From the IMG/VR virus record IMGVR_UViG_3300030430_002072, positions 1 through 34,386 of that record: DNA of 34,386 nucleotides. One strand, written 5' to 3'. Of the stretch, positions 2,194 through 28,414 are shown one piece after another. Position 1 is the stretch's first letter; every line of letters starts with the position of its first letter. The translations under genes were made by a program, and so were the position numbers. This stretch comes from a virus. The notes beneath the pieces were generated by a model. The model worked only from the letters and a program-made list of their open reading frames with translations, was not told where the DNA came from and did not search any database.

Positions 2194-2222
2194 ATTTAAG
2201 CATGAAATAAAAACAATGTCAA
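2194..2222 (-). promoter_or_regulatory. Leftward early promoter
   Basis: On the minus strand TTGACA (2222-2217) is followed after exactly 17 bases by TTAAAT (2199-2194). This is a consensus -35 with a 4/6 -10, placed about 30 bases upstream of the first leftward ATG at 2164. It would drive the eleven-gene operon down to the junction terminator. Confidence 0.65.
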
Positions 2223-2230
2223 ATAATAGC

Positions 2231-2257
2231 TTTACATCTAATAATAATGGATATATA
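2231..2257 (+). promoter_or_regulatory. Rightward cassette promoter, copy 1
   Basis: TTTACA, 15 bases, then TATATA, followed about 20 bases later by AAGGAT and the ATG at 2292. The same element with the same 15-base spacing precedes three more genes (3012, 3403 and 4249), which makes it a recurring signal rather than chance AT-richness. It lies back to back with the leftward promoter. Confidence 0.7.
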
Positions 2258-2291: not shown

Positions 2292-3002
2292 ATGGTTAAT
2301 TTAATTAATAATGTAAATAATGTAATAGATGATCAATTACACATTACGCAATTTAAAGTTAAAACTAATAAACTATATGGATTTAAAGCTATTGGAAGTA
2401 ATACAACCAGTAATAAATTTTGCATTAAAATGAATGATCCAACAAAAAAAATAAAAATTAATAATAACGGCCTTGAAAACAATATTAATTTAAAAAACTA
2501 TGTTTTGATTTGTAATGCGAACCCATGGACAAATTTTGCATTATGGACAAAAAGAAAAGATCTTATCCAAAAATTTTTTGATAAACATAAAAAACCAGAT
2601 AATTTAATTCTTATATATAGCAATCCCGCAGTAGATAAACCAATTAAAAAGACGTTCGGTCATTTTGATAAAATTTTTAATAATGTTAGCGCGGATAAAT
2701 TTACTGAAATTCAAAATTGCACGGGTCAACAATGTATTAATTGTTTACGTTGCTATAATAAAAGCAGTAAAAACGCGGATAATATTATTGTTGAAAAGGT
2801 AAGGAATGTTAAAAACGCGCCTAATCATATTTGCAAGGCGTGCTATTCACATAAAGGAATAAATTTCCGCGCCCATACTATGGTTAAACCGTTGCAAAAA
2901 AACAGCGATTTATTAAGTAAAGATATTTTAAAACCAATTCAAATTCCGCGCATCATTGATCGTTTTTTTCGGTTCAATCATCACGGGGAATTGATCACGT
3001 AA
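2292..3002 (+). CDS. GP88-like Cys-rich protein with rearranged block order
   Basis: A 236-residue protein related, as far as I can recognise, to the phage 'gene product 88' type family (function unknown). Three recognisable blocks are present. Block A, about residues 28-48, contains GSNTTSNKFC. Block C, about 63-172, contains NANPWTNFALWTKR, then LILIYSNP, FDKIFNNV and a NCTG-x2-C-x2-C-x2-CY cysteine cluster at 142-155. Block B, about 177-236, contains ICKACYSHKG and RFFRFNHHGELI. In the family as I know it the CY(S/A) segment and the R-x-H-x-x-G segment come before the WTKR segment, so the expected order is A-B-C, whereas here it is A-C-B. Cys residues at 44, 143, 148, 151, 154, 181 and 184 could bind metal. 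It is the first gene of the cassette region, with its own promoter and an AAGGAT ribosome site. Confidence 0.75.
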   Translation: MVNLINNVNNVIDDQLHITQFKVKTNKLYGFKAIGSNTTSNKFCIKMNDPTKKIKINNNGLENNINLKNYVLICNANPWTNFALWTKRKDLIQKFFDKHKKPDNLILIYSNPAVDKPIKKTFGHFDKIFNNVSADKFTEIQNCTGQQCINCLRCYNKSSKNADNIIVEKVRNVKNAPNHICKACYSHKGINFRAHTMVKPLQKNSDLLSKDILKPIQIPRIIDRFFRFNHHGELIT

Positions 3003-3011
3003 AATAATGAC

Positions 3012-3038
3012 TTTACATTCAATAAAAAAAATTATATA
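3012..3038 (+). promoter_or_regulatory. Rightward cassette promoter, copy 2
   Basis: TTTACA (3012-3017), 15 bases, TATATA (3033-3038), then AAGGAT just before the ATG at 3074. No terminator is visible between the preceding gene and this promoter, so readthrough from the first cassette is possible. Confidence 0.65.
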
Positions 3039-3385: not shown

Positions 3386-3402
3386 ATGTGTAAAATTAAC
3401 GC

Positions 3403-3429
3403 TTTACATATGATAAGAAAAATTATATT
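3403..3429 (+). promoter_or_regulatory. Rightward cassette promoter, copy 3
   Basis: TTTACA (3403-3408), 15 bases, TATATT (3424-3429), then a leader with AAGGATC before the ATG at 3467. It sits directly behind a strong terminator, so the following two genes depend on it. Confidence 0.75.
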
Positions 3430-3772: not shown

Positions 3773-4175
3773 AGAAAATTTTACAATTATAGATAATGAG
3801 ATAGTACACGAAAATCCGTATCATTATCCGACATATAACAATGGCACTTATTGTTTTGTCGTGGAGTGTTTTGATCGCACTTGCAATGTTGCTGTGCATA
3901 TCGGCAACAGTGCATTTCAAAAATGGTTAAATGACGAGCCAGACAATGACGTGTACAACAAAAAACAAGCGCTTGTTGATGATATCTACAATTTTGAGTT
4001 TAATTACGAAATAAACCCAGACATAAACATGGCAGATATATTCTGTCTGCTGTTAGGCGATCAAATGGGATTTTGGGACGATATGCCAAACGATTGGATC
4101 TACAAAATAACAAGTATAAACATGTATGAAAAGGTAGATAGCAAACTATTCCAAGAATTGATTGAAAACAACTAA
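3759..4175 (+). CDS. ArdA-like or antirestriction-type acidic protein (tentative)
   Basis: A 138-residue acidic protein. Visible features are a Tyr/Pro-rich N-terminus, FVVECFDRTCNVAVHIGN at 32-49, NDEPDNDVYNKKQALVDDIYNFEF, and a C-terminal DDMPNDWIYKITSIN segment. The acidity, aromatic content and place in an accessory cassette are reminiscent of antirestriction proteins, but I see no diagnostic ArdA motif, so the label is only a suggestion; otherwise hypothetical. The ATG at 3759 has GAGGT 5 bases upstream and overlaps the previous gene. A terminator follows 25 bases after the stop. Confidence 0.6.
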   Translation: MTMYRENFTIIDNEIVHENPYHYPTYNNGTYCFVVECFDRTCNVAVHIGNSAFQKWLNDEPDNDVYNKKQALVDDIYNFEFNYEINPDINMADIFCLLLGDQMGFWDDMPNDWIYKITSINMYEKVDSKLFQELIENN

Positions 4176-4231: not shown

Positions 4232-4248
4232 ATTTGTAAAATTAACGC

Positions 4249-4310: not shown

Positions 4311-4520
4311 ATGGCAATATATACTGCAACAATAGAATTGAAAATATCCGAAAGTTTACATAAAAATGATATAGAAAAATTAGAATACCGTTTAGAAAAA
4401 GCCATATATCAATTTGAAAATGATATACATAAAGGTTTTTTTAGTGATGTAGATGTGCGGGTTAGTAATTTACATAAAAATATTGTATATATACCGCCCT
4501 CATTAAAAGAAGTATATTAA
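4311..4520 (+). CDS. Small hypothetical protein
   Basis: A 69-residue protein with a beta-alpha-beta look: IYTATIELKISES, then a charged helix (DIEKLEYRLEKAIYQFEND), then DVDVRVSNLHKNIVYI. No family recognised. It has its own promoter, an AAGGAT ribosome site and a terminator 25 bases after the stop, so it is a single-gene cassette. Confidence 0.75.
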   Translation: MAIYTATIELKISESLHKNDIEKLEYRLEKAIYQFENDIHKGFFSDVDVRVSNLHKNIVYIPPSLKEVY

Positions 4521-4544
4521 TTTTATATAAATATTTTAAATAGA

Positions 4545-27355: not shown

Positions 27356-27388
27356 AAGAGCATCATACAAATTTTGAAAGGATTGATG

Positions 27389-28414
27389 ATGACACATTAT
27401 ATAGACCAATATTTAGACTATCGTTACAGTCGTGTAGATAAATCTACATACATAAGCGACCGCACAATATTACGTTGCGCAAAGAAATATTTTACAAATC
27501 AAATGATTGACGAGGGTAGGCCAAAGATTATATCTGAACAGCTTGAAAAGATACAGTCAGACTACTCTAAGGACAAACACAATCGTGTTCTGGCCAAGAT
27601 GCGTATGCTAGTCGATCATCTTATACGCTTTGAATTGATTGACAATCAGAACAACGTATTTAGATCTATGCAAAAGGTACAAGTGCCAACAGAAGAGAAA
27701 AGACACAAAGGTTTTTTTGAGTCACATAAAGACATACCTACAGAACATCATACAATAACCAGGCTGTATAATACGGCCGATGACGTACACAAAAAGTTGT
27801 TGATATTATTATTATCAGTGACTGGAGGACGTATCAACGAGGTTCTGAAAGTAAAATGGACAGACTTTGATTTGGACTCTGACACCCCACATGTACGGAT
27901 TTCTGAGTCAAAAAAGAAGTCCGGTGGAAAACTTGTCAAAGACGACACTAGACTTATGTTTCTCGATCCTGCCCATGTGGATAAGTTGAAAGAATTATAT
28001 AAACAGATTGCAGAAAAAAATAAAAATTCTAGCATTATGTGTAAAGATACATATACTTATGTAGTTACGAACTCGCATGGCGAGCGTCCGAGCAGAACGA
28101 CTATCTATAATTGGTATAGAAATATTTGGAAAAAAGCCTATGAGAAATACAAATGCCACAAAGAATATCCATTCCCACATGGCGACACACCCACAGGCTA
28201 TACTTTCCAAGCGTATCGGCGACACCTTATTTGTTCGTACAGAGAAAGTTTTGGTGAAAACTACACCAAATCTAACCATGAGGATTTACAACTAATGATT
28301 GGTCATGTCGTAGGATCTACTGTAACAGATAGAGAGTATACGCTCTTCAACAAAGAGAAAGTATTACAAAGACAGCAGAACAACAAAATCAACATAGGAG
28401 TGAAATTCGCATGA
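27389..28414 (+). CDS. int: Tyrosine recombinase / integrase
   Basis: 341 residues from the ATG at 27389, six bases after AAAGGA; an ATG one codon earlier is too close. An N-terminal SAM-like core-binding domain (about 1-100) is followed by the catalytic domain. Arg148 lies in TGGRINEVLKVKW, the beta-hairpin lysines in SESKKKSGGK, Arg277 in FQAYRRH, His306 in LMIGHVVG, and the nucleophile Tyr317 in TDREYT. The usual His of the H-x-x-R box is Gln274 here, as judged by eye. It should integrate the phage at a host att site. It overlaps the next gene as ATGA. Confidence 0.92.
   Translation: MTHYIDQYLDYRYSRVDKSTYISDRTILRCAKKYFTNQMIDEGRPKIISEQLEKIQSDYSKDKHNRVLAKMRMLVDHLIRFELIDNQNNVFRSMQKVQVPTEEKRHKGFFESHKDIPTEHHTITRLYNTADDVHKKLLILLLSVTGGRINEVLKVKWTDFDLDSDTPHVRISESKKKSGGKLVKDDTRLMFLDPAHVDKLKELYKQIAEKNKNSSIMCKDTYTYVVTNSHGERPSRTTIYNWYRNIWKKAYEKYKCHKEYPFPHGDTPTGYTFQAYRRHLICSYRESFGENYTKSNHEDLQLMIGHVVGSTVTDREYTLFNKEKVLQRQQNNKINIGVKFA

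Follow-up and report, generated by a model that had tools for sequence, protein, structure and literature searches.

The GP88-type gene at positions 2292-3002 of a phage genome raises the question of whether the conserved segments of its product have truly been reordered and, if so, whether the reordered protein still works. The stretch of DNA analysed, called the window throughout, is the whole of the 34,386-base phage record IMGVR_UViG_3300030430_002072, which encodes SU10-type portal and major capsid proteins. In addition to its SU10-type head genes, the phage has a phage integrase-family gene (27374-28414; PF00589, E 1.9e-8). There is only one GP88-type gene in the whole 34-kb record (one match in the search), and it forms a single unbroken frame of 236 amino acids on the plus strand.

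Block order in the window protein

The GP88 family can be described by three blocks, with the consensus sequences GF(K/Q)AI.(S/T)NT..N.(F/Y)C (N1), IC..CYSH ... FFRF..HGEL (B) and NP..F.LWTKR ... LIYS ... NC-x4-C-x2-C-x2-CY ... VEKV (C). A search with profile HMMs of the separate segments, as proposed in the initial annotation, finds all three blocks in the window protein, and they occur there in the order N1, C, B. The features of the gene are as follows.

2292-3002, plus strand: whole gene, 236-residue GP88-type protein with order N1-C-B (frame, BLASTP and block HMMs)
2334-2432, plus strand: block N1, residues 15-47, HITQF..KLYGFKAIGSNTTSNKFC (block HMM E 1.9e-12)
2433-2471, plus strand: replacement linker, residues 48-60, occupying the native site of block B, with no block B there (alignments)
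2472-2807, plus strand: block C, residues 61-172, with NP..FALWTKR, LILIYSNP, FDKIFNNV, NC-x4-C-x2-C-x2-CY and IIVEKV (block HMM E 3.6e-47)
2808-2825, plus strand: C-to-B linker, residues 173-178 (alignments)
2826-2993, plus strand: block B, residues 179-234, ICKACYSH ... FFRFNHHGEL, displaced to the C-terminus (block HMM E 1.4e-24)

The native place of the moved block B, which contains C181 and C184, is after window residue ~47-60, where a linker of about 13 residues is found instead. Block N1 includes C44, which corresponds to the opening cysteine of the family motif C-x12-C-x2-C (invariant C28 in the canonical alignment A5). The linker between N1 and C contains NNNGLENN, which is similar to NHHGELIT and was considered as a possible leftover of block B; this reading was dropped, as the sequence is not kept in the genes L007 or L008 listed below. 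There is also an imperfect direct repeat at 2768-2789 and 2810-2831 (TAAAAACGCGGATAATATTATT and TAAAAACGCGCCTAATCATATT, 82%), the second copy of which spans the C-B junction.

The nearest proteins from cultured phages are gp26 of Pelagibacter phage Greip EXVC021P and gp02 of Roseobacter phage CRP-5 (48% and 43% identity over the aligned pieces), and both are annotated as hypothetical proteins. A more distant relative is vir526_00018, from the virus record vir526 assigned to Methanomicrobiales. These three proteins and that of contig L001 all have the order N1-B-C, whereas the window protein is N1-C-B. Two separate BLASTP alignments are needed to match the window protein with each of them, wherein window residues ~61-171 correspond to the relatives' ~92-206, and window residues ~180-235, which represent block B, correspond to ~39-98. 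The split alignments and the order of the block HMM matches confirm the initial impression that the segments are shuffled relative to GP88 proteins, and the boundaries first assigned to them (residues ~63-172 and ~177-236) are right to within a few residues.

Occurrence and selection of the reordered genes

Block HMMs were scored over 226 sequences, which are the collected loci plus the window and include overlapping copies of some contigs. There are 212 representatives of N1-B-C, 10 of N1-C-B and three of B-C-N1, along with one truncated gene, and thus one small family exhibits three chain orders. The statement in the initial annotation that the CY and R-x-H-x-x-G segment precedes WTKR in relatives is borne out, and the possibility that A-C-B might itself be the relatives' norm was looked at and gave N1-B-C as the norm.

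The order N1-C-B is found in eight other IMG/VR contigs, whose proteins are 40-69% identical in amino acid sequence to that of the window, and additionally as a fragment in 3300021379_000864.

3300009001_002137: L007 (L159 is the same contig)
3300038825_000420: L008
3300002231_003511: L009
3300025168_000102: L018
3300017745_000184: L162
3300025168_004841: L227, from a scan with the window's terminase
3300025120_001534: L228, from the same scan
3300018428_000468: L231, from the same scan

A terminase 84-88% identical to the window's lies beside four N1-C-B genes (L159, L227, L228 and L231), and the flanking DNA of L159, L228 and L231 is syntenic with the window, with several of the same flanking genes. 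No other gene shared with the window was detected in the flanks of L008/L009, L018 or L162, and so the shuffled gene occurs in several phage lineages. The N1-C-B order is not private to the window genome, and it is inherited in the window's phage lineage. The neighbours of GP88 genes are mostly terminase, then a DUF932-like gene and a DNA cytosine methyltransferase-like gene (recognized by eye from the sequence), and no fixed partner gene was found among them.

The N1-C-B gene is under purifying selection. Values of dN/dS are ~0.04-0.33 among N1-C-B genes (L007/L231 0.05; window/L007 0.14), counting only pairs with estimable dS and with many dS values near saturation, and 0.03-0.09 among B-C-N1 genes. 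There are 38 near-invariant columns, defined by at least 95% conservation among canonical representatives, and the reordered proteins keep 35-37 of these, with the consensus retained at only 8-17 of the 58 variable columns. The window protein keeps 35 of the 38 residues, including all seven cysteines. Because the order is inherited and all of the cysteines and almost all of the other near-invariant residues are kept, the gene appears to be an uncommon example, from nature, of a protein that was re-cut and re-joined while working.

We consider it probable that the gene encodes a working GP88-family protein, whose function we infer, reordered from N1-B-C to N1-C-B by an in-frame exchange of adjacent segments. 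The in-frame internal transposition suggested at the outset is thereby supported, since N1-B-C is the norm and both junctions recur in independent contigs. That the order instead results from a misassembled canonical gene, a thought prompted by the record being a metagenomic virus contig, is hardly credible, because the eight contigs above have the same order with junctions that agree to within a few residues, because three of these contigs are syntenic with the window, and because purifying selection would not maintain a misjoin; misassembly was rejected for the N1-C-B order as such on the grounds of recurrence in independent contigs and synteny.

Kind and origin of the rearrangement

Proteins are known to evolve by circular permutation, and the initial annotation had offered a circular-permutation-like event as one description. 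This description does not hold in the strict sense, because N1 stays N-terminal while B and C trade places, and no rotation of N1-B-C gives N1-C-B. As to the kind of REARRANGEMENT, N1-C-B is a non-cyclic permutation in which two adjacent segments are swapped. Equivalently, N1 has remained where it was and the B-C part has been circularly permuted.

The B-C-N1 genes L032 (3818-4507), L033 (2-691) and L039 (3818-4507) exhibit a rotation of N1-B-C and are thus true circular permutants, whose N- and C-termini both lie in the cysteine loop. They are complete in three contigs (3300010368_003329, 3300025168_002931 and 3300024520_000888) and partial in two more, and they form a clade of their own with all motifs kept. 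A cut between the first cysteine and C..CY is common to N1-C-B and B-C-N1, and N1-C-B is also cut after HGEL. A canonical-order clade (the GP88 genes L016, L010, L024 and L177) has long inserts at the N1-B and B-C loops, which are the loops where the reordered proteins are cut.

The canonical order N1-B-C is most likely ancestral, judging from its presence in the distant vir526, in the Pfam GP88 profile (positions 41-185 of which are colinear with L041, a protein identical to Greip gp26) and in the CY and TKR segments of DUF5131. In the tree, the proteins of the window, L007, L008 and L009 are grouped (support 99/98), and L162, which is represented by one contig, lies beside a canonical protein; L162 and L018 shift position between trees. 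A single origin of N1-C-B was weighed with AU tests. With joined blocks, one clade of all six N1-C-B proteins is rejected (p 0.023, or 0.025 without long rows), and single blocks do not reject it (B 0.28, C 0.125). The number of N1-C-B origins is therefore put at one to three.

The most likely origin, as we infer it, is duplication, fusion and loss. The gene or its B-C part would have been duplicated in tandem and fused in frame, after which the first B and the last C would have been lost. No clear trace of a duplicate block is left at the window junctions. The surroundings of the gene include copies of a repeat:

2218-2256, plus strand: 39-nt intergenic repeat (family D1) upstream of the GP88 gene, with TTTACAT (promoter-like by eye) and an exact CTTTACATNNNAT at 2230
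2999-3037, plus strand: second copy of the 39-nt repeat (family D1), running from the GP88 stop codon into the next gene

The GP88 gene is thus flanked by direct repeats, which could promote its duplication. A third copy of the 39-nt repeat is located at 3390-3428. The repeated intergenic unit, with CTTTACAT, precedes successive small genes at these three places and near 4248, and there are four exact copies of CTTTACATNNNAT, all on the plus strand, between 2230 and 4260. In L032, the C-to-N1 linker carries an in-frame ATG ahead of N1, as a former start codon would be. This ATG may be a sign of the duplication route. Also in L032, a near-identical CAATTACAATGTAA(C/G)TGAAAGG is found at ~3787-3810, before the B-C-N1 gene, and at 4515-4537, before the next gene. 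Perhaps this is a repeated promoter or ribosome-site unit; it was not found in L039.

An alternative is a fusion of two paralogues, in which a neighbouring second GP88 gene contributed the C-terminal block B and the gene's own B, instead of moving, was lost. This would fit the observation that in the window, L007, L008 and L018 block B stands further from its canonical counterparts (best 41-53%) than N1 and C do from theirs. The flanking 39-nt repeats could likewise have favoured a duplication, and two-copy states do occur, as the Bacteroidetes MAG UBA10340 carries two GP88 genes. However, there is no second GP88 copy in the window, and trees built from B or C alone carry too weak a signal to assign the two blocks to separate regions of the family. 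We consider such a paralogue fusion unlikely, and favour an exchange within a single gene.

Predicted fold and comparison with known systems

The AlphaFold2 model of the canonical protein L041 (pLDDT 93, pTM 0.90) has six strands (16-18, 85-88, 119-124, 143-152, 165-170 and 200-204) and three core helices (55-70, 98-114 and 127-135). Whether the permuted chain still folds had been raised in the initial annotation, and a prediction for the window protein, made from an alignment of six full-length sequences plus unpaired blocks of canonical relatives, gives pLDDT 82 and pTM 0.83, with the blocks retaining the corresponding secondary structure. The cysteine loop of block B is poorly predicted (pLDDT ~50 around residues 181-192), where the alignment is six sequences deep. 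The models give good support to the prediction that the compact alpha/beta core of the canonical protein is essentially preserved in the window protein. Block B (cysteine loop, helix and strand ending HGEL) would still be packed beside N1 and C, but connected differently.

Perhaps, instead, N1 and C keep the core fold and the C-terminal B is a separate appendage or is swapped between subunits. The low pLDDT of the window model where block B begins is in keeping with this, as is the fact that B is the most diverged block. Yet all of the B motif residues (C..CYSH, R, HGEL) are retained and the pTM of 0.83 applies to the whole window chain, which makes an altered architecture of this type distinctly improbable beside a shared core.

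VIA-align comparison of the canonical model with the PDB places radical SAM proteins at ranks 1-6 (QueE 6nhl, 5tgs and 5th5; EpeE), with Z 5.4-4.8 over 134-159 residues. As a sign of the partial (beta/alpha) barrel core of the radical SAM superfamily, the best scores (QueE 5.4, EpeE 5.0) are weak, as Z near 5 is within the method's background, and dehydroquinate dehydratases are nearly tied with them (Z 4.8). Foldseek alone gave no PDB match for the canonical model at E <= 0.001, a PDB sequence search with the canonical alignment found nothing, hhalign of GP88 against QueE profiles gave no significant match (E 0.04, probability 1.3%), and Radical_SAM is absent from the Pfam hits of the canonical relatives. 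The window model produced weak matches (Z 3.4 or less) with the sequential aligner, and these are no evidence either way because this is expected for a reordered chain.

Radical SAM enzymes have a GGE motif at the end of strand 2. QueE has a beta6/alpha3 core and a CX14CX2C motif (PMC4389238). In canonical GP88 proteins, strand 1 is followed by C28-x12-C41-x2-C44 and strand 2 ends in H-G-E, in the place of GGE. The wide first cysteine gap is common to QueE and GP88, and the modelled GP88 fold resembles QueE and minimal radical SAM proteins in its six strands, three core helices and G-E after strand 2, although no sequence similarity between QueE and GP88 was detected and the fold match is weak (Z 5.4). 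GP88 is not filed in the radical SAM superfamily. It is moderately supported, with the chances about even, that the canonical GP88 proteins are QueE-type Fe-S proteins resembling minimal radical SAM enzymes. In such a protein, C-x12-C-x2-C would hold the cluster, H-G-E would replace GGE, and C-x4-C-x2-C-x2-C would serve an auxiliary metal or Fe-S site. The favoured function, by analogy with QueE alone, would be the modification of nucleic acids or nucleotides by this phage-encoded protein.

Radical SAM enzymes carry their three-cysteine cluster motif (CX3CX2C or an accepted variant) in one stretch. The corresponding cysteines of the window protein are not contiguous (C44-x136-C181-x2-C184), and in the B-C-N1 group the counterparts are C7, C10 and C221. 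If the radical SAM reading is right, the swap splits the cluster-binding triad, because C44 is parted from C181 and C184, and the triad would be assembled from residues 136 positions apart. More tentatively, and with the balance somewhat against it, evolution may have re-cut a radical-SAM-type Fe-S family on two or more occasions, one of them non-cyclic, leaving the active fold unchanged in all orders and the triad contiguous, split by 136 residues or distributed over the two chain ends. Such a history would directly show that a non-cyclic permutation can arise and persist in nature in a functional, recognizable family. Should GP88 prove to be a radical-SAM-like enzyme, we know of no earlier one with a cluster motif divided by permutation, and a literature search found no report of one.

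All three window blocks are homologous to accepted members of the Pfam family GP88 (PF17338), with the same conserved residues, but the order is not colinear with the N1-B-C norm of that family. All 62 canonical relatives match PF17338 (best E 1.1e-12; L041 40.5 bits). The window protein scores 21 bits (E 3.2e-4), below the gathering cut-off of 24.4 bits, and is matched in block C alone, where profile positions 116-187 align to residues 67-133. Profile searches can therefore miss reordered proteins. DUF5131 (PF07505, phage Gp37/Gp68) is a distant homologue that shares a three-cysteine motif ending in CYA and the TKR segment (hhalign E 8e-6 and 2.2e-6, canonical relatives only). It matches 40 of the 62 canonical relatives in Pfam (E down to 2.9e-5), and L041 is below the Pfam cut-off. 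In DUF5131 the C-x6-C-x2-C is contiguous and the CY segment lies ahead of TKR; the C-x4-C-x2-C-x2-C set was not found in the members aligned. Within the literature library searched, nothing on GP88 or DUF5131 was found.

Both the window protein and the B-C-N1 group are reordered GP88 proteins with their motifs kept, and they differ in that the latter rearrangement is cyclic and the former is non-cyclic. The reordering in the window gene is real, non-cyclic, inherited and under selection, and the phage protein family concerned, itself a known one, also contains a cyclic reordering. To our knowledge, there are hardly any documented cases of clear homologues that differ by a natural non-cyclic permutation. 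The GP88 swap can be traced between proteins at 50% identity, and as there are also orthologues, signs of selection and a canonical sister group, the question can be tested in a protein of 236 residues. Non-cyclic permutations between structures have been described for glucokinase versus 2-dehydro-3-deoxygluconokinase (PMC2213659) and for AML1/CBF versus riboflavin synthase (PMC2096629). Those cases are structure comparisons, whereas the proteins that differ by the GP88 swap belong to a single phage protein family and are clearly homologous in sequence (~50% identity).
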